From a virus: 56,645 nucleotides of DNA. The DNA lies in IMG/VR virus record IMGVR_UViG_3300000553_000036, positions 1 through 56,645 of that record. One strand, given 5' to 3'. The position numbers and the translations under genes are program-made. Under the pieces are notes generated by a model, which saw only the letters and a list, made by a program, of their open reading frames with translations, searched no databases and had not been told where the DNA came from. Below are positions 8,683 to 55,769 of the stretch, piece by piece (the first letter of the stretch is position 1; each line of letters opens with the position of its first letter).

Positions 8683-11600
8683 TATCCGCAGTTATTTTCG
8701 TTATTATTTTCAATTGGAGGTAATCCTTCTGGTGTGATGGTTGTATCTACTTCTGATTGTGTAAATAGATCTTCATCTTCTAATAGACCTTCTACATTTT
8801 GTATTCCACCAAAGTAAGCCATGATGTTTTCATTTGGTATAGTCTCATCAGATGTGATAAATCCATTATCTATTACAGACTTTCTTGGTGTAAGATAGAA
8901 CTCATTAGCAAACTTACCATCACCCCAAGCATTAATTGCTTTGTAAATATAGTTTAATTTTCCATCACCTCTATCATATGAACCAATTTTTTTGAACAGT
9001 CCTTTGTTTTTATAAGACAAATCTCCTTCTTTTCTCATCTTAGCTTTTTCAGCTTGAGATATATTCTTTTCCCATGTATATACAAGAACATCACTGTCTG
9101 ATTCTTTAGATAAAGCACTGATTCTTAATAGCTGAGGAATATCACCAGCCTTCATAGCATTGTATACATCTGCATGAAATGCCATGTTTTCATTGTATGT
9201 ACGCTCATTATATATAGGATCATACTTAGCTTTAGCTGACATGTGAGGAACAACATCACTATAGTTCCAGAATGTTCTTTCAAATACATTTAGTTTCTCG
9301 AAATCTGGAAGAGTTGATAACTGTTCCAAATCTGATAATGTATCATTATACACTCTCTTAATATCTTCATAAGGAAGGAATGATGTAAATGATATATTAG
9401 AATCAGTAAGACCTGATTGTAATACAGATAGATTAACAAGTTTGTTATATAAATCTTCTTTATCTTCCCCTTTCAAATATTCTTTTAACTCTTGGAATGC
9501 ATGTATCAATTGGTTTTGATCATACACTTTATTGTTCTTATTTCTAATTTGAATGTTATTAACCTCACCAGGAGCACCAAAATGTGGCTTTAAGATGTTA
9601 ATCACCTGATTATTATATAAAGGATGGTTAGTATCTTTTTTAACCTTCTTAACAAAGTTCCAAACCTTCTTAGCTGTATTATCATTTCCTATTAACTGAG
9701 ACTTAATTTTCTTATTCAATCCTTCATTAGTTTGAACAGCCCAGTCAAATAATGTAGCTACAGCTCTTTGAGAAGTTCTTACAAAGTCTCTATCATTCAT
9801 ATCTATATAAGGAGTGAGAACTTTTTCTAATATGTCTCTTGTTCTTCCTTGATCAGCTTTTAATATTGTAGATAGAGCATTTCTTACATCACTTATATTT
9901 TCCATTAACTTTCCAAGGAACGAATTCTTTAATAAAGAATCTGCAGAATTAAATATACTATCTCTAGCAGCATCCAATTGTTGCATTTTTCTGAACAATA
10001 AGAATGGATCATTGAATGAAGCTGTATCAAAGTTAGTACCTTGTGTAAGCTTAAACATATGTTCAGCCATCTTAGCATATTTCAAGAACTCATTAAGAAT
10101 AAATCTTTGCTCAGACTTATCCACCTTACTAAGATTAGTTTTTCCTACATTATCAAGTAGCTTTTCTTTAGAAGGCATTTTACTAGTGAAATATCCACTA
10201 CTAACATATCTCTTCTGAACTTTATTAAGTATTGTTGTATTAAATAACCATGTATACCCATTCTTTTCTAACTCACGTAAGTAATCACGAACAATTGGTT
10301 GGTTCATGAAATAAGCTGTTGTATCAATAGGTACTCCAATCTTAGTTAAGAACATCCATGTAGACGCTACATTTGGTGTAGCACCTAATTCCATAATCCA
10401 TGGACCTTTAGATATATCCACATAACCATCAATAAATTGTCCAAGAATATCAGAGATGAATTCACCATCTGCATTCTTAATCATTGATAATGTAGGTTTG
10501 CCATCTATTTGATTATACTTATCAAACTTAATTTTACCATCTCCTAAGAACTTAGCATCTGCAGCACTTAATAATCCTTTCTTAGCATTGAAATCTAGAA
10601 CAATAGGAGATCTCTGATTTAAAGAATGATTTGTTTGGTTCACAGCTGCAATACCAATTGCATATTTACCAGTTACAAATGCATGTCTTAATGTAGACAT
10701 AAATCTTCTACTCAACATGTTACCAGTGGATTCATAATCAAATGATCCAAGTCCCATTTTATCTACAATTGTTTTAGCTAAACCTTTTAATTGATCAGCT
10801 GAGTTAGGGGTCGTAAGTCTTTCAAAGTTTAAAGGATGACTAATTAGATTCTGTAAAGATTGAATATAAGCATTCTCTAAATTTCCTTTACCTTCACCTT
10901 TTAAAGATAACATTCTAGGAACACCCCTTTCACTATCATCTACATTTTTTAAGTAGATAGATAGTTTATCTATATCAAAATCCGATCCAACCTTCTTCAC
11001 TAAAGCAGAAGGGATTACCACAGAATCACCAAACTCTTCAGGAAGAAATCTAGCTATTTTAAATACATCAATTGAGTTCTGTTTCTGTGTAGGAATACGA
11101 AAAGCTACACCTTCTAATATACCAGAATCTTTTAATTCTTTAATAAGTTCTTCATCAGATAGATCTGACTTAAACCATCTACCCACCATAATCTCACATG
11201 TGCGTTGACCATCTTTATCTTCATAGAACTTAAGAGTATCAGATGTATATGCATTCTTACCATTCACCTTTACAGCTTCCACCTTATTAGATTCTAATAA
11301 TGTAGAAGGAACTTGCACTTTCATACCACCATTAATCTTAGGACTAATTACTTCTCTATCAGCAATAGAATATAAAATGTTTCTAATTTGTTGGTAAGCA
11401 GGAGTGGCTTCAATCACTACATCACCATCTTTAAATCCTTGTAATGCATCAATGATATTGTCATTAACTTCTCTTCTAGTTAACTCTCTTCTTAATGTAT
11501 CAGCTAACTTATCAACATTAGTTAACTTATATCCTCCATCTACTTTCTCGATATTAAATGTTTTCAATAGTGAGTTAACACCACTTTCAATCATTCTCTC

Positions 11601-14600
11601 AAGAATATTTTGGTTATTCTTTATCTCTTTATATAAAGGAGAAGCTTTTTCTCTTTCAGCTTCTGTTTTCAAACTGTACCAATCTTCATAACTTCCTTTG
11701 TAATCAATAGGAACACCTGCTGCCATGAAATCTAATGTAGAAAGCTTGGTCATTTGAGATCCTCTTGTCACTTGGTTATCTTCTTTAGAAGGAACCTCAG
11801 ACTGTACACTCATGATAGAGAATGGTACATTTACTATTCCATTAAATGGAGCTTCATTAAAATCTCCAGTGTTTGGATCATATAAGTTATGAACTTCTTC
11901 AGCTCCTACCTTTCTACCACTTTTATATACAGCATAGTCAATACCTTCAGCTTGCATCTTGTTATATAACTTAACAGCGTTAGATTCAGCATTAAGTTCT
12001 TTTGATGCTCTATAAGATAGGACAGTTAAGGCAAACTTATCTAATACAATATCATTATAGTTTTGACCATTTGCTTTATTACCAGTTACAATAGGTTTAC
12101 TAGGAGTGTATGTACGTCTGATTTGAGGATTGGCATCTCTTAATGTTCTCTTTTCAGCACTAGTTAACTTTTCACCTTTATCTTGTTTCTCCCATGCAAT
12201 ATCATATTCATATTGTCTTTCTTGTTGTGTATCCCACTCACCAGCTCTAATTTTAAAGTTACGATGTGCAGGTAGAGCAATAATACCACCACCATCTGTT
12301 TCTTCCCATGCACCATAATTAGGTAGATCATTAGTAGCAAATACATCACCAAGAGTTATTGTTTTGAAAGAATCTACATTAAAGTCTGTATGACCAATTT
12401 TACCCTTTGCAAATTTCTTATTCCAAACATTATCTAAAGCTGTATTCATTTCTACAGAATCAGCAATGATAGATTGTCTAGGAGAGTTAAAGCTTTTGAT
12501 ACGTTTTAATTCATCAGAGTATTGATATGGATCAGAATACAGCACCTTATGAAGCTCTATATTATTCATAATATAGTTAGCAGATAATGTAGCTAATTCT
12601 CTTTCTAATTCTTCTGGTTTCATTAATTCTTTACCAAATGATAAACCTTCTGTCTTAAAGCCATTATCATATGCCTTTAATAAGTTGTAATCAATTAGTG
12701 TTTTCTTTAATGATTCTTTTTCTTTATTTATAAAGTCTGTAACTTTTTCAGCAATCTGATTAACTTTAGTATCTGCATCAGTAAAACTATCATACACTTG
12801 TTCAGCTGTACCAAGTCTAGAGATGACATCATTGTGCAACTCTTCTCCTAGAATAGCCTTGAAGAAACGTAAGTCATTAGTGTTTCTATTTTTTGCTACA
12901 GTACGATCTTCCTTAGCTAAGTTAAACTCATCTATAAAATATCCTCTGAATTTATCATGTATAGCTTTATAGTCTGTAAGAATATCACTAGTATTAATTC
13001 TATTACCCATGAATAACATCCACTCAAGAGCAGCATCACCAGGAATTAGATTTAAATAGTATCCTTCTTTATTAAGATTGATCTCTTGTAACAGTCTATC
13101 TTTATAAGTTAATTTAGATGATTCTTTCTGTTTACCAGTTTCTTCATCAATAACACCACCAGCATATCCAGTGTGCATTAGTTGTTTAGCATCAAATTCT
13201 GCATCCTCATCTGTCTCAATTCTATCTCCAGATTCTTTATCAAACATTGAATACAGTAAGTCAGAATTCTTGCTAAATGTATCAGTTAGTAAGTATTCAT
13301 ATTGTGTACCTGTAAGTTCGCTTAAGTTATCAATTTGTGATAGATGATCATATAAATCACTAGCAGCATTTGTTCCAATAAATGATTGAGTCATCTCACC
13401 ATTAATATTGTAGAATGTACTACTAAATTCAGGATTATCCATCTTAGCTTTAATCTCAGCTAATTGACGCAAACGCTTATCAATATCTAATGATTTACCA
13501 GAGAAGCTCACCACCTGTTTAGCTTGAGCAATACTCTGTCTAATACCATTCACTGCCTTAGAGAATAATGATTTCTCAGGCATTGTTGATAGTTTCTTAT
13601 AGTCAAATTCAATACCAAGTTCTTTTAAGAAGTCTACTTGTGATTGTAAACTATCAAGTTTTACTTCTGTAATAGCACTTGCATTACCATAATATATATT
13701 CTTATATGAGTTGTAAGTAAAGTACTTACTTCCATTATCTATAGATCCTTTAATATCTTCAATAAAATCTTGTTGTGTTTGTCTAGCAGCTGTAGAAAAG
13801 TTAGCATCTCCCACCTGTACATCACCATTTGCTAATAGATATACATTCTTAACTGTAGGAGATTGTTTCTTAAATGTTTTCCATAAAGAAGCCAATAGCT
13901 GTAAATCAGTCTTATTATCTAATTCATCTAAGTTTCTCATCTTACTAAGACGATTATAAAGCTTAGTGTACTTAGAATCTTTTATAGACATGTCTTTAAT
14001 TCTGTTCACCATTTCAGTGATGTTACGAGAATTATGTGTATTATTCATTACACTAATAAATGTCTCACTCATTGGAACTAATGTATAGCCTCCAATAGAA
14101 GATAGTTTATTAGTACCATCTATATTAGTAACAGGAAGACTAGCTAGCAATAATTTAATTGCTGCACTAGCTTTTTTCATATGATCTATTTTACTAGCAT
14201 CACCATATGCATCATCTTTAGACCTATCCATTGTAGGAATTAACTCATCATTCTCATCAAACTCAATACCATAAGACTTGATATATTCTTCATGTTTAGC
14301 TTGAATAGCTTCCCAGTTATCTAATATATTTCCATATAAAGTGTTATTTGCCTCAATTGCTGCATTTACTTCTTCAGGAGATTCATCAGTCATCTTTTCT
14401 AACTGAACAACATTCTCAGCAATTAAATCACCTAATTCATCTTGAAGCTTTTGATAAACTTCTGCTTTATTAGTGGTACCACCTACAAGATCAAATAATC
14501 CTTTATTAGATTCAAATAAATCTTTTACAGTGGTATAAGTCATGTGTTGCATGATATCATTAATCTGTCCACCTGTAAATCCAGCTAATTTAAACTCACT

Positions 14601-17600
14601 GTTTTCATCACCAATAGCACTATCTATATTCACTATACCCTGTTGAGCAAATGATAATCCAGCTAAGTTTGGAGAGTATTCTGCATAATAACCTGTACCA
14701 ATATTCTCAAATAATCTATTTGTATTCTCTTCTGCTTTAGTTCCAACAAAGAATGTTTTAATCCAGTCTATAATCTGTGAGAAGATTCTAGATATTAATG
14801 ACTTACCTTCTTGAGCATCTTGTTTTAATGTACGATCTCTGAACTCTTCAGCTAGTTTTTCTTTAATATCTTGATCTGTAGCTTCAGAATAATTAATCTC
14901 TCTAGCAGTGAATACATCTGTATAAGAACCTTTTCTGTTTCTAAATTCAGTTCTTATAGCATCTTGTTCAGCTTGAGAAGTAAACATCTTCCATACAGCT
15001 TCAAACACCTCATGATAAGCTGTTCCCACTTCTGCATTTTGATATAAATAGATAGCACCATCCTTTAACATACCCCAAGCTAATTTACCATTAGTTGCTT
15101 GAATAATGTTATTCACTTTATATACAGGAATATTTGGTATGGTTTTACCTATCCATTGTTCTACCTTCTTCCAGTTTTCTGTTTGAAAATTATTTAAGTT
15201 ACTATTAATCTGTAGTCTATAATCACTTCCTCTCTTGCTATCTCCTTGTTGCTTTCTCTGATTAATCTTTTGCTGTAAGCTAGGATTCACCTTAGGAGCT
15301 TCAGCAGTAATAGGGGCTTCAGGAGCAATGGCTGCTTGTTCTTTAAGTTGTTTAGCTATAATATTTCTAATAAGATTCTTAGCTATAGCAAATGCTTCTT
15401 CATCAGTTGAATCTGCTGTAACACCAGTGCCAGGAATTTCTGCTAATTTACCAGTGATTGTTTCTAATGTTATCTTAAATGCACCATCTTCATTCTCATC
15501 AGGAAGTTTTATACCTTCAATAATTGCAGCATTAGGATCAAACTTTTCTGGATCAACACTAAATGTAATAGCTACATTTCCAAGTTTATCAGAAAGTTTA
15601 ATTGTATTCTTTTCTCCATTAGTATCAAACTTCTTACTCTCTTCTTTAGTGGTAGTCACCTTAGTTTCTTTAGCTGGTAAAGCTTCTGCAGAACTACTAC
15701 TATTCTTATCTGCTAATGTAAAATAGATTCCTTTTCTATTAGTATCTGTAGCATTTTTAAGAGGTCTGATTTGTGTTGTCAAAGGAATATCTACACTAGA
15801 TCTTTTTCTTCCTTCTGGATCATTAGGAGATAATAAATATGATTGATAGTTCTGCCACTCTCTGGTTTTAATACCATCAGCATCAATATCTGTAATTTCT
15901 GTATACTTAGAGTTCCAAGGTTTTGTTTTAGAACCTTTTGTTAAAGATGAATTAACATTATGGTATAATCCAGCAAGTCTATCTATAATAGCTTCTTTAT
16001 TCTTATCAAGCTCTTTAGGATCAAGATAAAACTCTTGTTCATCTTTACCAATCTTTAATTTCATGTTCTCAAAGAACACACTACTATATCCAGCTTCTTT
16101 TCTATTTCCTTGAGCATCTGTAGGAGTGCCCCAATACACAACTGACTTTAACCAGTTGTATAACATTTGAGATTCTCCAGATTTAAGATTACCATCATTA
16201 ATTAAGTTAGTGGCAAGCTTATTAATAGCATTATATATTAATGTAGCTTCTGTACGAGTGAATTGTCTATTATCCACTTTAACCATTCCGTTAGCAGTGA
16301 ATACTGTAGGCAATCCTTTGATGTTATTCATAGTGACAGATCCTCTTGTTTGAGCATCATCACTTGTAGCAACACCTATCACTCTCTTTGTTCTTAGTTG
16401 TTTATCAGTAACTAATCCAGCATCTGTTACAGGAGTTCTAGCATTATAATCTCTTTCAAACTTACCAGAAGCACTTAATTCTCCTACATAATCAGGAGTT
16501 CCAAAAGATGCTTGTATTTGGTATAAGTTAGATGTAGGAGAATCTAATGTTTGTTTTCTCCAGTTATTATATTCTTTTGTAAGAGCTTCTACATCTTCTT
16601 CTGATGTTGTATCTCTAAACATAGAGCCACCACCAGACCAAGTTAAAGTTTTAGGAAACACTTGATATATAGTGTTCTCTAATGTAGGTTTAGTTAATTT
16701 TTTACCATTAACATCTACAAAATATTTCTCACCACTAACAGGATCTACTCCCATTACAACTAATGCAATAGTTTGTTTAGGATCAATATCTTCACCACCT
16801 GTACCTTTATCTTTCAACCATTGTGTAAGACCAGGTACACCAATTATAGCTTCATTACCTGATGTAACAATAACACCACGAAAGTTATCATTACCAGGTA
16901 GGTCATAAAAGTTAGCACCAAACTGATTAGCACGCACATGATGTGCTGCTAAAGGAGTCTTTTGAGAATATCCTTCAACAGGAGCACTAGTACTATTAAC
17001 TACTTGCTCATCTGTTTTTTTAGGATCTATTTCATAAGGTCTATCAAAATCAGCTGTAGGAACACTATCTGTATCTGCAGTAGTTTTTAACTCTTTAGAG
17101 AGATTATCGTTTTGTGTAAGTTTTTGCTTGGTAAGTCTTTCATCTAACTCAGCTTGACTATCTTCTTTAAACTTCTTCTCTATAGCATCAGTTAACTCTG
17201 CATTGTTTAATGCATTAATATATTGTAACTTATCAGTTCCTTCTGTAGGCTTTTCAATACTAGAGAACTTCTCATCTTTTAAAGTTTCATCAATGGCATT
17301 ATCCATTGTTTTCTTAAGCTCTTCAGGATCATGTTCTGTATTGGCTATATTATATCCTGTAAATTCTTCTGGAGTTAGATATTCTGTAGTTCCATTAGGG
17401 TTGGTTATCTGATATTTACCATCAACTAGTCCTGCATTAAGAGTTATCTTAGGAGCAAGAGTTAATGTATTATCTTCTCTATGAACAAGATCAGTTAAAG
17501 GATATGTATCTCCAACATTTAATTCTTTGTCAACTGTTTTATCAGTGTCATTTAAATCCACTTGTTTTATAGATGCAGCAGTGTTAGGAGTGCTAGGACT

Positions 17601-19949
17601 GTTCTTAAGATCTTCAACTATTTTCTTATTAGCTTCTGTTTGTTTTTTTACAGCATCAAATGTATTTCTAAAATTAGTCTTATCTATAGATGATCTATAT
17701 CCTTCTTTAGTAATTTCTAAAGACTTTTCTAATGCTTCATTTTCATCTAGTAATCTATTTGCTCTAACTTCTTGAGGAGATGATGGTTTTTCCACCTTCT
17801 CTAATATTCCTAATCCTGCTAATTCAGCAGTGTTCTTTCTCAACTGAGAGTTAAAGAATATCTGATCTGCTGCATTGAAGTATTGATAATTCTTTACACC
17901 TTCAATATATTGACCTGCAAGTTTAACTTCATCAGGATTATTCTTATCTACATTAAGACTAGTGAACCCAGCATGTCTTTGATCAATAGCATCGTGTGCC
18001 TTTTTCAATTCTAATGCATGAGTGATGTTTCTTTGTAGTTGAATTTCAGGAGTAATTTCTATACCTGCTTCATTATCATTCACTCTATTAATATCTTCTT
18101 TTTGATTCTTAGCTTCAAACCTTAATAGATTATTTAAATATTCCATTCCATTAGGATCATCAAAGAAGTTCTGACCTAATGCAGCTAATGAATTAAAGTT
18201 TAATTGATCTAATGCTAATTTATTACCATCTTTAATAGCTTGTACCTTTGCTAATATTTCAGTTTGAGAATCCATTAAAGATGCTCCTAATGAAGCAAGT
18301 CTTTCTTGGTTAAACTTAGGTTGAGGTTTTCCTTCATTATCAACAGTTGTAACTATAGCACCTTTCTCATCTTTTTCAAAAATATCATCTGGTGTATTAA
18401 AATATCTTCTTCTAGCAGTTGCTTGCAGTATTCCTTTTTTAAAGTTTTCTGCAGCTTCATCTTGTTTTGTATATTCTTTTGTAGCTATACTTTTAGCATG
18501 TCCACCTAAGGTCATTAACATACCTTGAATAGTACCTAGAGCAATATTGTTCTGACCATTAGGATCATTAACATTATCTATCCAGTCTGTCATGATACTA
18601 GCAAATCCACCTTGGTCTTTCTTTATACTACCATTTTTTACTTTACCAGCAATAGAGTCTTCTAAATATCTACCAATGGCTACTTGAGCACTTTCATTTT
18701 GACCATGCTCTAACCCTGTTAAAAATGTCTTTCCTAATAATTTACCTATTGTAGGTTTAGAACTAGTCACTGTAGTTTCTAAAGCTTCAAGTGTTTCTGC
18801 ATTAAAATATTTCTTTAATGCACTTTGAGCAGTTTTTGCTGTAGAAAATATCTGAGGAAGTTCATATAATGATGCACCTATACTTAAAGGAAGTGTATAA
18901 ACAAATCCTTTCATTGCACCCTCTGCTGCTTTTTGTTCTATCTCATCATTTGATACATTAATTAATCCTTGATCTCTTTGTTCTTGTAAAGATTTTCTAA
19001 TTGCCACTTGAGCTTCTTTACCATTCAATCCAGACTGACCAATTACATTCCAAGTGTATAATTCTGCTTTTTGAGCACCTTGTATAAGTCCTTTAAATCT
19101 TAATGCTGTAGCAGCCTCTAAATCAGAAGCTCCTGTACCAGCCACTTTATATATTTGGTTACCTAGCATTTTACCAAGCTTACCATATAATTCAGGATTT
19201 TCAGAAAGAGCTTGAATTCCTTTTGCTCCAAGTCCTGTAGCTCTTAATCCTCCAGCTTCTTCCATTGCTCCAAATAATCCAATCCCTTTAGCTTCTAATG
19301 CTCCAGGAGCAATCATAGATGCTGTAAGAGCAAGACGATCTGCAGCATCATCTAACCACCAACTAGAAGTAGTTAACTTACTCCAGATGTTACCATTAGT
19401 GTATTTAGCACTTTTATATATAGGATTGGTTTCTTCCACTTTGTTTTTCCAAAGATCTCCTAGGTTAGTCATGAAGTTATCTGTCATTAAAGAGACAGCA
19501 TTTCCATTATTAACAAGATCTCCTTTTCCACCAACTGCTTCATTTGCTAAATTAGCTATTCCACCAATAGCTGCAGGAACTGCACCTAATATAAATCCAG
19601 CATTTTGTAAGAAATATGCTCCTGTTTTATTAACAAAGTTCCATCCAGCATTTGCCACTCTATCTAGTCCAGATTGTCCTTGTGCATGATAATCCTCTTG
19701 ATCTCCAATAGTGGGATTATAAACACCATATCTTTTATTATCTATTAATTCTTTTGTACTATATACAACATCAGGTTTACTATAGTTAGATGTATCACTA
19801 TAATAATCAATTAGGTCCATACCATTAGTGCGTGGTGCAGCACCATCACTATCAAGTTGTGGAATTACTGCAGCTGGATTGTAAGCAGACTTACGTTCTA
19901 CAGGAGTATCAGGAGTTATTATTGGATCTAAACCTTGAAAATCTGGCAT
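8682..19949 (-). CDS. crAss-like virion RNA polymerase, giant multidomain protein (3755 aa)
   Basis: The largest gene of the window. The C-terminal third carries the crAss-like virion RNA polymerase signature: a VGSDFDIDKL segment with D2990, D2992 and D2994 as the predicted Mg2+-binding DxDxD loop. It is preceded by an IPTQKQNS...FLPEEFGDSVVIP segment and by a QVTRGSQMTKL segment around G2730 of the first barrel region. This family, characterised in Cellulophaga phage phi14:2, is a single-chain double-psi beta-barrel polymerase that is packaged in the virion, ejected and transcribes early genes. The characterised enzyme is about 2180 residues, so this protein carries a long N-terminal extension. 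The extension contains a hydrophobic segment (about 111-139) and an HEVFE motif (H1646, E1647, E1650) in a region resembling phage metallopeptidase domains. It could be processed after synthesis. Polymerase identity is strong; the function of the extension is unknown. Confidence 0.9.
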   Translation of the reverse strand: MPDFQGLDPIITPDTPVERKSAYNPAAVIPQLDSDGAAPRTNGMDLIDYYSDTSNYSKPDVVYSTKELIDNKRYGVYNPTIGDQEDYHAQGQSGLDRVANAGWNFVNKTGAYFLQNAGFILGAVPAAIGGIANLANEAVGGKGDLVNNGNAVSLMTDNFMTNLGDLWKNKVEETNPIYKSAKYTNGNIWSKLTTSSWWLDDAADRLALTASMIAPGALEAKGIGLFGAMEEAGGLRATGLGAKGIQALSENPELYGKLGKMLGNQIYKVAGTGASDLEAATALRFKGLIQGAQKAELYTWNVIGQSGLNGKEAQVAIRKSLQEQRDQGLINVSNDEIEQKAAEGAMKGFVYTLPLSIGASLYELPQIFSTAKTAQSALKKYFNAETLEALETTVTSSKPTIGKLLGKTFLTGLEHGQNESAQVAIGRYLEDSIAGKVKNGSIKKDQGGFASIMTDWIDNVNDPNGQNNIALGTIQGMLMTLGGHAKSIATKEYTKQDEAAENFKKGILQATARRRYFNTPDDIFEKDEKGAIVTTVDNEGKPQPKFNQERLASLGASLMDSQTEILAKVQAIKDGNKLALDQLNFNSLAALGQNFFDDPNGMEYLNNLLRFEAKNQKEDINRVNDNEAGIEITPEIQLQRNITHALELKKAHDAIDQRHAGFTSLNVDKNNPDEVKLAGQYIEGVKNYQYFNAADQIFFNSQLRKNTAELAGLGILEKVEKPSSPQEVRANRLLDENEALEKSLEITKEGYRSSIDKTNFRNTFDAVKKQTEANKKIVEDLKNSPSTPNTAASIKQVDLNDTDKTVDKELNVGDTYPLTDLVHREDNTLTLAPKITLNAGLVDGKYQITNPNGTTEYLTPEEFTGYNIANTEHDPEELKKTMDNAIDETLKDEKFSSIEKPTEGTDKLQYINALNNAELTDAIEKKFKEDSQAELDERLTKQKLTQNDNLSKELKTTADTDSVPTADFDRPYEIDPKKTDEQVVNSTSAPVEGYSQKTPLAAHHVRANQFGANFYDLPGNDNFRGVIVTSGNEAIIGVPGLTQWLKDKGTGGEDIDPKQTIALVVMGVDPVSGEKYFVDVNGKKLTKPTLENTIYQVFPKTLTWSGGGSMFRDTTSEEDVEALTKEYNNWRKQTLDSPTSNLYQIQASFGTPDYVGELSASGKFERDYNARTPVTDAGLVTDKQLRTKRVIGVATSDDAQTRGSVTMNNIKGLPTVFTANGMVKVDNRQFTRTEATLIYNAINKLATNLINDGNLKSGESQMLYNWLKSVVYWGTPTDAQGNRKEAGYSSVFFENMKLKIGKDEQEFYLDPKELDKNKEAIIDRLAGLYHNVNSSLTKGSKTKPWNSKYTEITDIDADGIKTREWQNYQSYLLSPNDPEGRKRSSVDIPLTTQIRPLKNATDTNRKGIYFTLADKNSSSSAEALPAKETKVTTTKEESKKFDTNGEKNTIKLSDKLGNVAITFSVDPEKFDPNAAIIEGIKLPDENEDGAFKITLETITGKLAEIPGTGVTADSTDEEAFAIAKNLIRNIIAKQLKEQAAIAPEAPITAEAPKVNPSLQQKINQRKQQGDSKRGSDYRLQINSNLNNFQTENWKKVEQWIGKTIPNIPVYKVNNIIQATNGKLAWGMLKDGAIYLYQNAEVGTAYHEVFEAVWKMFTSQAEQDAIRTEFRNRKGSYTDVFTAREINYSEATDQDIKEKLAEEFRDRTLKQDAQEGKSLISRIFSQIIDWIKTFFVGTKAEENTNRLFENIGTGYYAEYSPNLAGLSFAQQGIVNIDSAIGDENSEFKLAGFTGGQINDIMQHMTYTTVKDLFESNKGLFDLVGGTTNKAEVYQKLQDELGDLIAENVVQLEKMTDESPEEVNAAIEANNTLYGNILDNWEAIQAKHEEYIKSYGIEFDENDELIPTMDRSKDDAYGDASKIDHMKKASAAIKLLLASLPVTNIDGTNKLSSIGGYTLVPMSETFISVMNNTHNSRNITEMVNRIKDMSIKDSKYTKLYNRLSKMRNLDELDNKTDLQLLASLWKTFKKQSPTVKNVYLLANGDVQVGDANFSTAARQTQQDFIEDIKGSIDNGSKYFTYNSYKNIYYGNASAITEVKLDSLQSQVDFLKELGIEFDYKKLSTMPEKSLFSKAVNGIRQSIAQAKQVVSFSGKSLDIDKRLRQLAEIKAKMDNPEFSSTFYNINGEMTQSFIGTNAASDLYDHLSQIDNLSELTGTQYEYLLTDTFSKNSDLLYSMFDKESGDRIETDEDAEFDAKQLMHTGYAGGVIDEETGKQKESSKLTYKDRLLQEINLNKEGYYLNLIPGDAALEWMLFMGNRINTSDILTDYKAIHDKFRGYFIDEFNLAKEDRTVAKNRNTNDLRFFKAILGEELHNDVISRLGTAEQVYDSFTDADTKVNQIAEKVTDFINKEKESLKKTLIDYNLLKAYDNGFKTEGLSFGKELMKPEELERELATLSANYIMNNIELHKVLYSDPYQYSDELKRIKSFNSPRQSIIADSVEMNTALDNVWNKKFAKGKIGHTDFNVDSFKTITLGDVFATNDLPNYGAWEETDGGGIIALPAHRNFKIRAGEWDTQQERQYEYDIAWEKQDKGEKLTSAEKRTLRDANPQIRRTYTPSKPIVTGNKANGQNYNDIVLDKFALTVLSYRASKELNAESNAVKLYNKMQAEGIDYAVYKSGRKVGAEEVHNLYDPNTGDFNEAPFNGIVNVPFSIMSVQSEVPSKEDNQVTRGSQMTKLSTLDFMAAGVPIDYKGSYEDWYSLKTEAEREKASPLYKEIKNNQNILERMIESGVNSLLKTFNIEKVDGGYKLTNVDKLADTLRRELTRREVNDNIIDALQGFKDGDVVIEATPAYQQIRNILYSIADREVISPKINGGMKVQVPSTLLESNKVEAVKVNGKNAYTSDTLKFYEDKDGQRTCEIMVGRWFKSDLSDEELIKELKDSGILEGVAFRIPTQKQNSIDVFKIARFLPEEFGDSVVIPSALVKKVGSDFDIDKLSIYLKNVDDSERGVPRMLSLKGEGKGNLENAYIQSLQNLISHPLNFERLTTPNSADQLKGLAKTIVDKMGLGSFDYESTGNMLSRRFMSTLRHAFVTGKYAIGIAAVNQTNHSLNQRSPIVLDFNAKKGLLSAADAKFLGDGKIKFDKYNQIDGKPTLSMIKNADGEFISDILGQFIDGYVDISKGPWIMELGATPNVASTWMFLTKIGVPIDTTAYFMNQPIVRDYLRELEKNGYTWLFNTTILNKVQKRYVSSGYFTSKMPSKEKLLDNVGKTNLSKVDKSEQRFILNEFLKYAKMAEHMFKLTQGTNFDTASFNDPFLLFRKMQQLDAARDSIFNSADSLLKNSFLGKLMENISDVRNALSTILKADQGRTRDILEKVLTPYIDMNDRDFVRTSQRAVATLFDWAVQTNEGLNKKIKSQLIGNDNTAKKVWNFVKKVKKDTNHPLYNNQVINILKPHFGAPGEVNNIQIRNKNNKVYDQNQLIHAFQELKEYLKGEDKEDLYNKLVNLSVLQSGLTDSNISFTSFLPYEDIKRVYNDTLSDLEQLSTLPDFEKLNVFERTFWNYSDVVPHMSAKAKYDPIYNERTYNENMAFHADVYNAMKAGDIPQLLRISALSKESDSDVLVYTWEKNISQAEKAKMRKEGDLSYKNKGLFKKIGSYDRGDGKLNYIYKAINAWGDGKFANEFYLTPRKSVIDNGFITSDETIPNENIMAYFGGIQNVEGLLEDEDLFTQSEVDTTITPEGLPPIENNNENNCG

Positions 19950-44510: not shown

Positions 44511-46064
44511 TTAGAACTGTGGTATTTCTTCAATCAAAACTGTACGAGACAAATCTTCAATGAATACATCACAACGATCCTTCATCCAAATTTCATAACC
44601 AGGAAATTTATTAGCAGAACTCATACCCTGAGATTTAGCAAAACCTAAGTGGTGACGAGTACCATCAATATAACCCCAAGTCATAGAAGGAGCACCTTTC
44701 ATACGTACTTCACGAATGTTATTAACCATTGAACCATCGCTCATAGGACTAACATCAAATACCATGAATACAGGTGTAGATTTTTTGTTCTGACCAAACT
44801 CTAAGTTTGTTTGTGGTAAATCTAATTCTTTTAAGTGAATCAATTCAACACGACCAGTTTCACGAGTAACCATTGCATCAAATGCAAAGTTATAAGTGAT
44901 ATGCTGACCTTCACCTTGCATATAACGGTTACCGCTATCTGCCATGAAAGTTAAACCAGAATTTAAAGCGTCATTCTTTAAAGCTTGTTGGAATACATCA
45001 AAACCAGCTTCATTAGTGTACATCTTAACTCTACGATCCTTAACATCAACACGTCTGTAGAACAAATCACCAAAAACCGAACGAATCAAGTTAGCAGTGA
45101 ACTCACCACGATTGTATTGTACTAAGTTACCATTGTTACGCATTCTGTGGTATACACCAGCAGATGTACGTTTTAATTCTTGTTTAGAACCATTAGTTTT
45201 AACGGTACCAGGTCTAGCCCAGATCATACGTTTAACTTTTAATTCTAACATAGATTTACGCATCCAGAATTCAATGAACGGTTCCCATTTAACATCATTA
45301 CGAGTTAAAGGTAATTGGTTCCTACGTTGAGGAGCATATACTAAGATGTCTAGTGGTTTACCAGAAGCATCACGCATCATTTTATCATCAGCCCATTCAG
45401 TAATTTTGTGCTCATAACCATATGCAGAACCTAAAGATTCAAACATTGTGATTTGTTCACCCAAACGAGGAAGACCTAATAAATCTTGGTCAAACTCACC
45501 GATAGCAGCATCAACTAGTTCTAATTCGATACCCACTTTCAAGAAGGTTGAATTTACATAGTCAACTGTTGGATTATCAGTTACAAGAGTAAAGCTGTAC
45601 AAATATCCTACGTTCCAAGGAACTGGATCTTTAACTACATAGAAACGAGGACCATATTGACGAGTACCTACAGATACAATTGCATTTTTAGAGAACTCAT
45701 TAGTGTCAATCACTAAAGAGAATTCTTGTCCATCAATACCAGGTTTGTCTAAATCTAGAGTGCTGGTAGGAACATCAATAATCTTAGGGAACTTGTAAGG
45801 TACTTGTACCTGCCACTTCCAAGCATCACTGTTGTTATCAATATAGTAAGGAGTGCTCTTGTTAATCATATCCAAGAAGTCATTACTGTAAAGAGAACTC
45901 TGAGTGTACAAACTGATAATTTTCTTATCATAGTCTGCTGGTTCAGTTGAGTGAAAGCTTTCCAAGTGGTTTGAATCTGTTAATTTACCTACAGCACGCT
46001 TATCCATTGAAGCGACCCTAGCGTAAGTAAAACCAGTTAAACCTGGAATTGTCTGAATTGCCAT
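44511..46064 (-). CDS. Major capsid protein, crAss-like (517 aa)
   Basis: This 517-residue protein lies immediately after a scaffold-like gene and two genes after the portal, the expected place of the HK97-fold capsid protein. Its length fits crAss-like capsid proteins. Segments such as YYIDNNSDAWKWQVQVPYKF, GFDVFQQALKND, RYMQGEGQHITYNFAFDAMV and GYEIWMKDRCDVFIEDLSRT have the conserved look of this family. Codon use is shifted from most neighbours, with frequent CGT for Arg, as expected for a highly expressed gene. The leader is A/T-rich (AAAAAATAACACAATGG). The stop is TAA followed closely by a GC-rich structured segment that may protect or end the transcript. Confidence 0.85.
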   Translation of the reverse strand: MAIQTIPGLTGFTYARVASMDKRAVGKLTDSNHLESFHSTEPADYDKKIISLYTQSSLYSNDFLDMINKSTPYYIDNNSDAWKWQVQVPYKFPKIIDVPTSTLDLDKPGIDGQEFSLVIDTNEFSKNAIVSVGTRQYGPRFYVVKDPVPWNVGYLYSFTLVTDNPTVDYVNSTFLKVGIELELVDAAIGEFDQDLLGLPRLGEQITMFESLGSAYGYEHKITEWADDKMMRDASGKPLDILVYAPQRRNQLPLTRNDVKWEPFIEFWMRKSMLELKVKRMIWARPGTVKTNGSKQELKRTSAGVYHRMRNNGNLVQYNRGEFTANLIRSVFGDLFYRRVDVKDRRVKMYTNEAGFDVFQQALKNDALNSGLTFMADSGNRYMQGEGQHITYNFAFDAMVTRETGRVELIHLKELDLPQTNLEFGQNKKSTPVFMVFDVSPMSDGSMVNNIREVRMKGAPSMTWGYIDGTRHHLGFAKSQGMSSANKFPGYEIWMKDRCDVFIEDLSRTVLIEEIPQF

Positions 46065-50618: not shown

Positions 50619-52649
50619 TTAAAACAATTTACTTTTATAGTTTCTAGGACGTGATTTAAACATCCCTCTTGATTCTGTGAATAACATGTTACCATTTTTC
50701 TTAAGAAACATAGATGCCACCCTTTCATCAGACGATCCTCCAACCTTTCCAAGGATGGGATCCATCTTAAGTGCCTGGGCAATAGCTAGTTCTGCAGCAA
50801 TGATTCTATCAAAGTTACCTTGATCATTGTATTGAATAATCTCTTCAAGGAGTACAGGATCAAATATCTTACTCACCCCATACACTTCTTTAATAGTTTC
50901 TCCTGCATCATTTGTTTCTTTGTATACAGTGCCTTCTAAATACTTCTTTAAGCAGGTGTGAAGATACTCAATTATCTTATCACTTGAACGATGTATACCA
51001 TAATCTCTTTTAACAGTGGTATTTGGTACTATCTCCTTTAACCATTGTGGTTGTTTCTCTAGATAATGAGCATCACCTTTCGCTTTCATATACTCTATAA
51101 AAGATATATCATCATTCTCACAGAGTGTTCTGGCATTGTAATACTTAATAAGTAGACGAGCTTGTTCTTCCCATGTATCTTTCTTATCAGGTCTAGCTGA
51201 ATAGGAAGCAACAAACATATCTTGATATTTCTCACCTGTCAAATCATGCATACGTTTATATATGTATACAGATCCTAGAGATGAGCTATATGCAGATTTA
51301 CCCTGTCTGTAGGGATCCACTCCTGCTGTGTACAATCCATATGGAGGATTTTCTACAGGGAATTCATATATAATTATAGGAGCATCCTTTGAGTCACTGT
51401 TCTTTAAAGGGAAGTTTGTAATAGGAAGTTTGTCTGTAAACTCATGTTTAATCCCTGTATCATCAGTGTATAATATTACAGGAATCCCTGTTCTCTCTTG
51501 TTGTAACAGTCTGGTTTTCTGTCTCTTAGCTCCTTCAATCTCAAATATATTAGTATCTTCATTTAAGAATATATCATCCACATCAAATGGATAGTACATC
51601 TTTTCTTTTAAATAGGCTATTCTATCACCAGCTTTCTTAAGTCTGTCTAGGTCCTTTGTAGTTATTTCATTAGCCTTCTCTTCATTACTCACTAACATCT
51701 TTATATTATGTAAGTCACTAGAGGTAGGTTGATCTAAATAGGCACCTAACGTACTATCTTCCTTGGCTTCCATTCTATATTTATTAGAAATGAATAGTCC
51801 ATGGATCCTTTTATCATCATTATTGTTATTGTATTCTAGGAAATTGAAGTTGGCTACATCGAACATTAAGCTCTTTGCATCCATAAATTTCTTCATATCA
51901 CCCCCAGTACCAGTAAGAATTGGAGAACATCCCCAACCATAAGGAGTTGTAAACCCTGGAATAGCAGCTTGTAAGCCTCTAAGAAAATTCCCTTTACCAA
52001 TCTCATCTATAATAAGTTTACGTGGTTTTGTACCTGCAATTGCTTCTTCATTATTACCCTCATCTAAGTTACGTATTAGAATAGAAGAGAAGGGTATACG
52101 CTCTCCTGATTTAGTTTTAATACCAAGAGTCACCTGGTTTTTCCAGTTATCCTCAATCCTTTGCCACCTCCAATACTCAGGAATAAACCCAAGTCCCTTA
52201 TCTATCTTATCTGTAATCAATTTAATATCTGGTGCATTCAAACCAGCAATAATGTTTTGGGAGTTCTCATCAAACGTAGCTCCCCATGCTATATAAGATG
52301 CCTCAAGAACGGATTTAGCAAAACGTCTAATACCTAGAATAATTAAACCTTTTTTGTCTATTTGAGCTTTATCAATTTCGTTCGTCACAATCCATTCATT
52401 GTCCCTTAACAAAGGGTTGGCATACTTTTGACTTATTCTTCCCCTATCATCTATAACATCCACCTCAGTGTGCCAGATGTTTAGGTGCCAATACAAAAAG
52501 GGGTTAATATACACCCCATTCATCATTGCACCATTTAAGGCTATGTCTTTATGAAAATCAAAGAAAGGTTTACACTCTTCGCTATCCTTATCAGGAATGC
52601 GTTTCTGATTTATGAACCAATCCTTATAGTCTATACTTTTGATTTCCAT
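50619..52649 (-). CDS. Terminase large subunit (676 aa)
   Basis: The packaging ATPase-nuclease. The Walker A-like P-loop is G106-IRRFAKS-113, with the RRFxKS form typical of crAss-like terminases. Walker B is LIIDEIG with D215 and catalytic-type E216. The C-terminal RNase H-fold nuclease begins with AGVDPYRQG, D445 being the first metal ligand, followed by TLCENDDISFIEYM about 90 residues later. The gene is tightly linked to the portal and to a chain of small upstream genes. It cuts and pumps concatemeric DNA into the prohead. Confidence 0.92.
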   Translation of the reverse strand: MEIKSIDYKDWFINQKRIPDKDSEECKPFFDFHKDIALNGAMMNGVYINPFLYWHLNIWHTEVDVIDDRGRISQKYANPLLRDNEWIVTNEIDKAQIDKKGLIILGIRRFAKSVLEASYIAWGATFDENSQNIIAGLNAPDIKLITDKIDKGLGFIPEYWRWQRIEDNWKNQVTLGIKTKSGERIPFSSILIRNLDEGNNEEAIAGTKPRKLIIDEIGKGNFLRGLQAAIPGFTTPYGWGCSPILTGTGGDMKKFMDAKSLMFDVANFNFLEYNNNNDDKRIHGLFISNKYRMEAKEDSTLGAYLDQPTSSDLHNIKMLVSNEEKANEITTKDLDRLKKAGDRIAYLKEKMYYPFDVDDIFLNEDTNIFEIEGAKRQKTRLLQQERTGIPVILYTDDTGIKHEFTDKLPITNFPLKNSDSKDAPIIIYEFPVENPPYGLYTAGVDPYRQGKSAYSSSLGSVYIYKRMHDLTGEKYQDMFVASYSARPDKKDTWEEQARLLIKYYNARTLCENDDISFIEYMKAKGDAHYLEKQPQWLKEIVPNTTVKRDYGIHRSSDKIIEYLHTCLKKYLEGTVYKETNDAGETIKEVYGVSKIFDPVLLEEIIQYNDQGNFDRIIAAELAIAQALKMDPILGKVGGSSDERVASMFLKKNGNMLFTESRGMFKSRPRNYKSKLF

Positions 52650-53723: not shown

Positions 53724-54012
53724 TTTTCATAGCAGTTTTAAGTTCATCTTCCTTATCACCATCTATCAAGGCTACCCATTTCTTTATTGGGCAATCACAA
53801 GAGAGACATTTTGTTTTAGCAGATAGTGTACATCCGCAATTTGTACAATGGTCATCGAGTCTTAATGTCTTATGATGCTTGGAATGGAACTCACATTGTT
53901 CACAAATGGCAGTTCTTTCCTTGCTGATTTTACTAATTAAAGGCCTGAGTTCTTTGGCTGGAAGGAGGTTGTTCTTCCATCCTTCGTACACCTGTGAGAA
54001 ATCAATCTTCAT
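53716..54012 (-). CDS. Zinc-ribbon protein (98 aa)
   Basis: A 98-residue protein with three Cys clusters: CEQC at about residue 37, CTNCGC at about 57, and CLSCDC at about 69, ending in a PIKKW motif. Small multi-Cys proteins with this arrangement are recurrent in crAss-like and related Bacteroidota phages near the terminase. The fold is likely one or two zinc ribbons. It may bind nucleic acid or support assembly. It overlaps the HU/IHF-like gene by 11 bp. Confidence 0.65.
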   Translation of the reverse strand: MKIDFSQVYEGWKNNLLPAKELRPLISKISKERTAICEQCEFHSKHHKTLRLDDHCTNCGCTLSAKTKCLSCDCPIKKWVALIDGDKEDELKTAMKNE

Positions 54013-54355
54013 ATTTAGTTCTAAGTTTAAGTTGGTTTATACTTATCAATGTCTTTTCAAGTGTGACATTTGCACTTCTTTTCTTTTGTTCTGTAGTTTG
54101 ATCACTAGCAATAATCTTCTCCATTGCTTCTTTCTTCACAATCAACGTCTGTATCTTCTTTAGAGCTTTCTTATTATTAAAGAACAACTTACCAAACCCT
54201 GATATCTCCAAACTGTCATTTAAATCCATTGCCTGATTGGCAGATTGAAACTGATGGTTCACTACAGCCTCTATTGTCTTTTCACTTGTTAACATCTTCA
54301 CTGCCAGGATTCTAATAAGATAGTCCTTGACAGACATACTCACTGGCTTATCCAT
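54002..54355 (-). CDS. HU/IHF-like DNA-binding protein (117 aa)
   Basis: The first 65 residues fit the HU/IHF fold: helix SVKDYLIRILAVKML, helix TIEAVVNHQFQSANQAM, then the beta-turn LEISGFGKLFFNNKKALKKI, where HU/IHF proteins have the conserved GFG turn at the base of the DNA-bending arm. The C-terminal 50 residues form an extra basic helical region (EKTLISINQLKL). crAss-like phages usually carry IHF-like genes near the terminase. It may bend DNA for packaging or late transcription. The fold call is moderate because the DNA-contacting arm is short. Confidence 0.6.
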   Translation of the reverse strand: MDKPVSMSVKDYLIRILAVKMLTSEKTIEAVVNHQFQSANQAMDLNDSLEISGFGKLFFNNKKALKKIQTLIVKKEAMEKIIASDQTTEQKKRSANVTLEKTLISINQLKLRTKYED

Positions 54356-54704
54356 GACTTATAGTTATTTGTAACACAATATTATTATCAAAGTTTAATA
54401 GAATAACTGGGTTCACCTTTATCTTCGTTCCATCCTTCACGAGAATACCAAGCTTCTTAAGCTTAGAAATCATGTTATTAATTGTAGGAGTGGAGCTATT
54501 GTGTTTGTTACAAAACTCCTCCCGTATATTAGCATAACTTATATTCCCCTTAATAGCAGCAAAGGCTATAAGCTGTATTTCCCTTTGTGTAAGCTTTAAA
54601 TCATTTAAGGCTGACAACAACGTGTAATACTTCTCTGCACAGGAATAATTATCCCCTACAGGTTTCTTAAGCTTTTGAACTACTATCTTCTTATTGGTTT
54701 CCAT
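54348..54704 (-). CDS. Winged-helix DNA-binding protein (118 aa)
   Basis: Residues about 35-95 have a winged helix-turn-helix layout: LKLTQREIQLIAFAAIKG, then NISYANIREEFCNKH, then STPTINNMISKLKKLGILVKDG as recognition helix and wing. The N-terminus is basic. Such proteins are conserved near the start of the capsid module in crAss-like phages and are probably transcription regulators of late genes. It overlaps the HU/IHF-like gene by 8 bp. DNA target unknown. Confidence 0.6.
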   Translation of the reverse strand: METNKKIVVQKLKKPVGDNYSCAEKYYTLLSALNDLKLTQREIQLIAFAAIKGNISYANIREEFCNKHNSSTPTINNMISKLKKLGILVKDGTKIKVNPVILLNFDNNIVLQITISHG

Positions 54705-54783: not shown

Positions 54784-55020
54784 TTATGCACTATTTCTAT
54801 AGAACAAGATGTAAACATTAACAATCAACATACCTATTCTGAACTCTTTTTCCTGTCCTCCATCCTGTAGAGTGTATGTCCTATTAGATATTCCTAGCTC
54901 AAAATCAAAAGCTGAAAGACTAATAAGCTCAATACCCATTTCCACTTCCTCAGAACCTGTCCATGCCTTAGCAATAGCAAACAGAAGAAACACAACAATA
55001 ATAACATATATCATATACAT
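54784..55020 (-). CDS. Small membrane protein (78 aa)
   Basis: The first 20 residues form a hydrophobic helix (MYMIYVIIVVFLLFAIAKAW), followed by a 55-residue charged domain (GSEEVEMGIELISLSAFDFE, TLQDGGQEKEFRIG) and a second, weaker hydrophobic end. It is the first gene of the leftward block, just downstream of the divergent control region and of a candidate promoter. A holin or spanin component is possible, but a signal-anchored host-modifying protein is equally likely. An ATG two codons later could be the start. Confidence 0.55.
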   Translation of the reverse strand: MYMIYVIIVVFLLFAIAKAWTGSEEVEMGIELISLSAFDFELGISNRTYTLQDGGQEKEFRIGMLIVNVYILFYRNSA

Positions 55021-55054
55021 AGAATTTAGTTAATACTAACCCACCCAACCACCC

Positions 55055-55087
55055 CAAAGGTAGTGGTAAAAATAAATACCAACCAAA
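55055..55087 (-). promoter_or_regulatory. Candidate Bacteroidota-type promoter for the leftward block
   Basis: On the minus strand TTTG (55084-55087) and TACCTTTG (55055-55062) are separated by 21 nt, fitting the TTTG-N19-21-TAnnTTTG pattern of Bacteroidota primary sigma factors. It lies about 35 nt before the first leftward gene. It is a pattern match without experimental support. Confidence 0.4.
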
Positions 55088-55104
55088 TTTATTTTTTATA
55101 TGCT

Positions 55105-55146
55105 TTAAGATATAATTTGTCATTAAAGGCACAAATTATATCTTAA
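55105..55146. repeat. Perfect 16-bp inverted repeat in the divergent region
   Basis: TTAAGATATAATTTGT (55105-55120) and its exact reverse complement (55131-55146) flank a 10-nt spacer. It is the longest perfect inverted repeat I found in the non-coding DNA of this window. It sits between the leftward candidate promoter and the parS-like site. It may be an operator or an origin hairpin; it lacks the GC-rich stem expected of a terminator. Confidence 0.7.
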
Positions 55147-55222
55147 TGCGTATAATATGACACATTATGTAAACCTATAGCTTGACAATATGTAAAGAAA
55201 AGTAAAGCTATTGATTGACAAA

Positions 55223-55238
55223 TGTTCCATGTGAAACA
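55223..55238. promoter_or_regulatory. parS-like centromere sequence
   Basis: TGTTCCATGTGAAACA differs from the bacterial ParB-binding consensus TGTTnCACGTGAAACA at one position (C to T in the centre). The palindrome extends to AATGTT...AACATT (55221-55240). Finding a site this close by chance in a window of this length is unlikely (a hand estimate is a few in a thousand under uniform base composition). It is a sequence match only; no parA or parB gene lies in this window. Confidence 0.5.
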
Positions 55239-55260
55239 TTTTACAAAATTTTTTTCTAAA

Positions 55261-55360
55261 CCCCCATACCCCCTATATCAAAGGGAGATGAGGCTACTTC
55301 CAGCCACAACCCCTCCACATGTTGCCAGGGTTGGGGGTATCCCCCATTCGATATAACCTG
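55261..55360 (+). promoter_or_regulatory. GC-rich structured leader of the 128-aa gene
   Basis: A roughly 100-nt GC-rich segment in AT-rich DNA ends about 22 nt before the rightward start codon. Possible pairings are TATATC (55274-55279) with GATATA (55350-55355) as outer stem, GGCT with AGCC (55292-55295 / 55302-55305), CAACCC with GGGTTG (55307-55312 / 55328-55333), and GGGGG-TAT-CCCCC (55333-55345). Some are mutually exclusive, which could allow switching. It may be a regulatory 5' leader or part of an origin; no known riboswitch was recognised. Confidence 0.45.
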
Positions 55361-55382
55361 ATAAAAATCAAAATCTAAAATC

Positions 55383-55769
55383 ATGAAAAAAGAAATTAAA
55401 GGTAGAGACGTACTAAAGATCAAGTTAATCTCTAAAGGCAAAGCTTACCAAGTTGAAGAAGGTCATTCTTTCTACGGTCAAACGTTCAATACTTATCAGT
55501 ATAACGGTACTGCGTTCACTGTTAATAGTAATGATGAGTTTGCTCAATGGAAAGATAACGCTAAATTATATAGTGTTACGTTCGATGAAGGAACTCGTGA
55601 TAGAGAAATCAATGGTGAACTAGTTAAGGTGCAAACTTTACAATTGGCTAGCTGTACTAATATTGACCAAGAAATCTCTATGGCTCAAACTGAAAAGACT
55701 TTAAGTGATATCTTTAAAGATGAACCTGCAGAAAAGGTTAGTGAATCTTTATTGAATGCTCTTAGTTAA
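55383..55769 (+). CDS. Unknown, probably abundant early protein (128 aa)
   Basis: This is the first gene of the rightward block. It begins MKKEIKGRDVLKIKLISKGK and continues with beta-type segments (HSFYGQTFNTYQYNGTAF, KLYSVTFDEGTRDREINGEL). It ends with an acidic helix (EKTLSDIFKDEPAEKVSESL). Codons are richer in CGT and less repetitive than in most neighbours. It has its own structured leader and a strong terminator, the profile of a highly expressed, separately regulated product. The acidic C-terminal tail recalls single-strand DNA-binding proteins, but no OB-fold signature is evident, so no function is assigned. Confidence 0.75.
   Translation: MKKEIKGRDVLKIKLISKGKAYQVEEGHSFYGQTFNTYQYNGTAFTVNSNDEFAQWKDNAKLYSVTFDEGTRDREINGELVKVQTLQLASCTNIDQEISMAQTEKTLSDIFKDEPAEKVSESLLNALS

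Follow-up and report, generated by a model that had tools for sequence, protein, structure and literature searches.

The window analysed here is a stretch of 56,645 nucleotides, positions 1 to 56,645 of the 62,647-base IMG/VR virus record IMGVR_UViG_3300000553_000036, in which two opposed gene blocks diverge from a non-coding control region. The features of this region and its surroundings are as follows.

50619 to 52649, minus strand: terminase large subunit (TerL), used as the query for relatives
54002 to 54355, minus strand: HU/IHF-like DNA-binding protein (PF00216, above cut-off), near the control region
54348 to 54704, minus strand: 118-aa protein with weak winged-helix-like similarity (Phage_rep_O 0.006, HTH_Crp_2 0.05, all below cut-off)
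54784 to 55020, minus strand: gene opening the leftward (late) block, with a 78-aa product of no known family
55021 to 55382: divergent control region, the gap between the two opposed gene blocks
55223 to 55238, plus strand: parS-like palindrome TGTTCCATGTGAAACA, seen in the sequence, recurring in relatives and of the type found as Bacteroidota parS beside mnmG
55239 to 55255: A/T tract TTTTACAAAATTTTTTT (AAAAAAATTTTGTAAAA on the minus strand), abutting the palindrome in the window's subclade (alignment of 23 relatives)
55283 to 55302: conserved G/C-rich block GGGAGATGAGGCTACTTCCA, from the alignment, retained in a relative without the palindrome
55333 to 55345, plus strand: inverted repeat GGGGGTATCCCCC in the 5' leader of the first rightward gene, seen in the sequence and conserved in relatives
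55383 to 55769, plus strand: gene opening the rightward (early) block, with a 128-aa product of no known family

The Palindrome and Its Control Region

The palindrome TGTTCCATGTGAAACA lies between the leftward gene starting at 55020 and the rightward gene starting at 55383, and a sequence-only reading of the window had described it as a near-consensus ParB-binding site in non-coding DNA. This description is confirmed, as the site departs from the parS consensus TGTTNCACGTGAAACA by a single mismatch, a C to T change in the central CG. The opposite strand of the site, TGTTTCACATGGAACA, carries two mismatches to the same consensus, and the half-site GTTTCAC is unbroken on the minus strand. No other match with zero or one mismatch is found within the record holding the window, and the same site is present in G001, a 94.7-kb record approximately 98–99.7% identical to the window's record where the two align. 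One copy of the degenerate palindrome TGTTNCAYRTGNAACA is found in the window, compared with none in 30 second-order Markov shuffles, although the comparative evidence for the site is much stronger than such single-sequence statistics.

Two TTGACA boxes stand near the site in the divergent promoter region, and the whole leader of the first rightward gene folds with only a modest advantage over shuffles (z −1.75). A terminator reading was discarded, since no terminator-like match was found. The 118-aa protein, encoded next to the divergent region and conserved in 82 searched sequences, represents a candidate rival binder and a possible early/late regulator. In the near-identical G001, 143 bp separate the site from the cumulative GC-skew minimum, and in the complete relative G036 this distance is 42 bp, a placement resembling that of parS near the origins of bacterial chromosomes; because the coding strand switches at the same point, this minimum is suggestive of an origin rather than independent proof of one. 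Regarding the claim that origin-like elements neighbour the site, the elements themselves (A-tract, C/G-rich blocks, hairpin, and GC-skew minimum) are present, while their role in an origin stays putative.

Identity and Probable Host of the Phage

The assignment to the crAss-like phages was borne out by the terminase (phrog_6681, 3.9e-84), the major head protein (phrog_11589, 2.3e-31), the two opposed gene blocks, and terminase matches to crAss-like phages. The best named terminase matches are Leptolyngbya phage Lbo-JY46 and Cellulophaga phage phi4:1, both of which are listed in their records without the order Crassvirales; the nearest named phage by terminase is Lbo-JY46 (PP438436; L304, L381), at 40% identity and recorded from Leptolyngbya. 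The late block also holds a single open reading frame of 3755 aa (8682 to 19949, minus strand).

Genes without Shine-Dalgarno motifs are expected in phages of Bacteroidota. In the window phage and its relatives, these motifs are no commoner than in shuffles (slightly more so in G036), a condition shared with Cellulophaga phage phi4:1 and unlike that of lambda, and a Bacteroidota host thus fits. A cyanobacterial host was also considered; evidence against it comes from the same lack of Shine-Dalgarno use and from the photosystem gene family psbA, which was not found in 41 records. Based on these phylum-level hints, Bacteroidota is the likely host phylum of the lineage. A terminase search of 396 Bacteroidota genomes returned one distant match only and, therefore, no host assignment. 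Lbo-JY46 likewise makes no use of Shine-Dalgarno motifs, and the cyanobacterium recorded as its host is therefore worth re-checking.

Recurrence of the Site Among Relatives

Eighty terminase relatives were compared across their control regions, which lie 1.7–4.5 kb upstream of TerL. The flanks there diverge strongly, yet a palindrome with GTTYCA...RAAC arms turns up repeatedly. Among 48 non-redundant control regions, TGTTYCACGTGRAACA is found within one mismatch in 13 and within two mismatches in 17, compared with means of 0.03 and 0.2 (maxima 6 and 13) for 300 permuted palindromes of equal composition. When all 6+6 palindromes were counted without prompting, GTTCCA-N2-TGGAAC also ranked among the top (9/48; shuffles, at most 3), some of the higher-ranking palindromes probably lying in genes.

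On the terminase tree, the site is present in canonical, near, or centre-variant form in about 39–42 of the 57 scorable relatives, the variant labels of three of the 42 (L053, L063, and L088) being weak, and the distribution implies approximately seven gains or losses, with fully canonical copies located in separate parts of the tree. Perfect matches to TGTTNCACGTGNAACA occur in relatives L068 and L072, and the canonical core is found in 10 loci. There is usually one site per phage genome, with two in L072.

Measured against the refuting condition set in the sequence-only reading, the outcome is mixed, as the exact 16-mer and its position are not fixed, but most relatives retain the palindrome class and the region. 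In L010, the nearest distinct relative (92% terminase identity), the block containing the site is deleted from an otherwise conserved control region, another relative (L011) carries a site displaced beyond the first early gene, and the central bases vary. The loss of just the site block in the former, together with the displacement in the latter, argues for selection on function rather than on position. None of 14 named crAss-like phages, the prototype crAssphage not among them, has a site within one mismatch, which suggests that the site belongs to this mostly environmental lineage and is not a property of gut crAss phages at large. From these phages, the deletion in L010, and roughly 15 relatives in which the site is missing, it can be concluded that the site is not essential. 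Taken across the lineage, the site is conserved beyond chance at a non-coding place close to a putative origin, the latter predicted from GC skew only.

Several other palindromes were encountered in these scans. GGTTACACGTGAAACA, present in many relatives within the major head protein gene (44511 to 46064, minus strand, in the window), reflects coding conservation (VTRETGRV), was excluded from the counts, and constitutes a trap for parS scans. A perfect TGTTTCACGTGGAACA occurs in relative G017 (L377, about position 7914) within an ORF predicted to be coding, at a distance of 12 kb from the terminase, either by chance or as a moved site, and a distinct palindrome, TATTTAACGTTAAACA, is shared by L060 (at −3182 relative to TerL) and L068 (at −3781). 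When viral contigs in general were scanned for this exact sequence class, the loci among the matches listed did not resemble this lineage's proteins, and the result has no bearing on enrichment within the lineage.

Comparison with Bacteroidota Chromosomal parS

The exact palindrome TGTTNCACGTGNAACA is found in 224 of 297 Bacteroidota genomes, compared with about five for the reversed pattern, and a site with at most one mismatch is present in each of the 15 Bacteroidales tested. The gene adjoining the canonical Bacteroidota parS was identified as MnmG/GidA. This location explains why a search reaching 10 kb from parB found no parS in 80 Bacteroidales loci, which had been reached with an approximate ParB query and matched it at 73–82% identity. 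Positions 1/16 and 5/12 are variable in host and phage sites alike, and the central CACGTG is constant in the regions around exact Bacteroidota sites.

The centre first looked like a difference between phage and host, because about half of the phage sites, including that of the window, have another centre. However, the window's form, GTTYCATGTGRAAC (CATGTG), is found in 31 of the 297 Bacteroidota genomes. The exact canonical site is missing from 18 of these 31 genomes versus 55 of the 266 others (Fisher p = 2.5e-5). Seventeen genomes with CATGTG but no exact canonical site were examined, and in 15 of them the CATGTG form lies beside mnmG. The centres counted near mnmG were CACGTG (44), CATGTG or CACATG (19), CACGGG (2), and CACAAG (1), in proportions that are biased since the loci were picked for having sites. 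One host cluster carries TGTTCCACAAGGAACA (the CACAAG form), which is the centre of phages L016, L020, and L026, while CATATG and CATGGG were seen in phages only. As CATGTG and CACAAG also occur beside host mnmG, the centre spectrum of the phages largely overlaps that of the hosts.

In the comparison with Bacteroidota proposed in the sequence-only reading, the phage palindrome conforms at sequence level to the pattern of a chromosomal-type parS, and the central mismatch of the window is itself a variant seen at predicted host parS loci. The likeness extends to the 16-bp palindrome, the free positions, the centres (CACGTG, CATGTG/CACATG, and CACAAG), the intergenic location, and the proximity to an origin-like point. 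The phage copy differs in being usually single, in having its central CG replaced in about half of the sites, which is more often than in host sites, and in the lack of parAB from the same replicon.

Partition Genes in the Phage Lineage

The statement that no par genes lie in the window holds more widely. In 28 records (the window's record, the near-identical 94.7-kb G001, and 26 others), the ParA ATPase family (PF13614) was found in none, with 14 of 14 control genomes positive, and the ParB helix-turn-helix domain HTH_ParB (PF17762) was likewise found in none, with 9 of 14 controls positive; on these two predicted markers, a phage-encoded ParABS is not detected in any of the 28. The records include G036 (113.7 kb), which is complete by a 233-bp terminal repeat, contains exactly one site, and encodes beyond that site a replication block with a DnaB-like helicase and RecA. 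None of the phage proteins tested was recognised as a plasmid replication or lysogeny function. A 243–268-aa protein with weak ParB_N similarity (PF02195, below cut-off) and no HTH is encoded in 5 of 41 records (L089–L093), in some relatives at a distance of approximately 3.5 kb from the site. With no ParA or parS-binding ParB in the 28 records, a host protein is the likely reader of the site, and the interpretation offered in the sequence-only reading is partly supported.

Interpretation of the Phage Site

In our assessment, there is a good probability that the palindrome represents a genuine parS of the Bacteroidota chromosomal type that is read by host ParB, and these phages probably rely on the host segregation protein for placing, maintaining, or controlling their own DNA. 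Once the DNA has been injected, or while the phage is carried as an episome, host ParB would load at the phage site as a CTP-dependent clamp and slide over the flanking control and early region, upon which host ParA, and perhaps SMC, could position or partition the phage DNA with the chromosome. The possible outcomes of such loading would include partition or tethering of an episome, SMC loading, control of early promoters by spreading, and titration of ParB; that partition or positioning is the main benefit, rather than another ParB effect, falls slightly short of an even chance. More tentatively, this integrase-free crAss-like lineage may persist as an episome carrying a host centromere, partitioned or tethered by host ParABS at no genetic cost, with site gains, losses, and centre variants tracking the parS preference of current hosts. 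Several observations speak against this explanation: the single site per phage, the greater degeneracy of the phage centre, the dispensability of the site shown by its loss in L010 and its absence elsewhere, the lack of plasmid replication and lysogeny genes among the proteins tested, and the cyanobacterial record of the nearest named phage. As to the degenerate centre, Pseudomonas ParB binds half-parS sites, although Bacillus subtilis ParB was not seen to do so, and the arms GTTTCAC or GTTCCAC, intact in most phage sites, suffice for binding by the Pseudomonas protein (PMC10419367); since some ParB proteins bind half-sites, imperfect phage copies are plausible.

The palindrome could also be the operator of a phage-encoded dimeric regulator of the divergent promoters, resembling parS by convergence. 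Its place in the divergent promoter region near the TTGACA boxes, its constant arms and variable centre, and the conserved 118-aa winged-helix-like protein encoded alongside in nearly all relatives would suit this role. Nevertheless, relatives without the site encode the 118-aa protein just as often, and an unfixed position relative to the genes, with clean loss from L010 although the remaining control region is kept, is awkward for an operator. Agreement with host parS in the arms, at the free positions 1/16 and 5/12, and in most central variants would not be expected from convergence, and on balance the operator is regarded as unlikely. A reader encoded by the phage itself, for which the ParB_N-like protein is the candidate, is the least probable explanation, as that protein lacks HTH_ParB, is encoded neither by the window's phage nor by the complete G036, and shows no correspondence with the presence of the site.

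A chance match was rejected on the permuted-palindrome controls. When the view is broadened to chance or a decaying, functionless relic, the deviation of the window copy at the central CpG, the missing site in the closest relative, and the one exact match inside a coding ORF (G017) lend it some colour; recurrence across diverged relatives far above the permuted controls, together with a window centre that is itself a host parS variant, makes it very improbable. A stronger contender, though still somewhat unlikely, accepts the palindrome as a host-ParB site and places its benefit elsewhere than in partition, namely in titrating ParB or disturbing host segregation as a decoy, or in silencing or tuning early promoters through ParB spreading. 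The copy number of the site climbs during lytic replication, the site sits within the control region, and the parS mimics of SGI1 both stabilise that element and expel its helper plasmid (PMC10954446). However, a single site per genome would add little before replication, and the origin-like location fits partition equally well.

Relation to Known Systems

Reading by host ParB, the preferred explanation, has a precedent in SGI1, whose parS mimics hijack the ParABS system of IncC plasmids, stabilising SGI1 and destabilising the rightful owner (PMC10954446). Similar to SGI1, the phage lineage appears to carry the parS of a resident replicon without par genes, as a mobile element relying on the ParB of another replicon. 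The two differ in that SGI1 borrows a plasmid system, as established by experiment, whereas the donor for the phage would, on sequence evidence, be the host chromosome. Phage-plasmids of the P1 type and those of actinophages encode their own ParA and ParB (review PMC11652158), neither of which was found in the window's lineage, although both kinds of phage have a centromere-like site on their DNA and episomal persistence as a plausible benefit. Carjivirus communis, the prototypic crAssphage, is presented in passages of two articles as a phage-plasmid recognised via plasmid-type genes such as repL (cited in PMC11652158, PMC11844821), and is thus a crAss-like phage with a proposed episomal carrier state; in the parts of the literature searched that deal with it, no parS is reported.

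No earlier report of parS in crAss-like phages, or of phage use of host ParB, was found in the literature searched, with preprints and most subscription papers outside its range. The persistence of virulent gut phages has been called a mystery (PMC11844821), and a host-type centromere on crAss-like phages would offer one directly testable answer to how persistence without integration is achieved. If true, it would extend parS hijacking from SGI1 and a plasmid partition system to phages and the system of the host chromosome. The comparison also yields a description of Bacteroidota parS as a site beside mnmG/gidA with CACGTG or CATGTG centres, as exemplified by L357, L363, L370, and L371.
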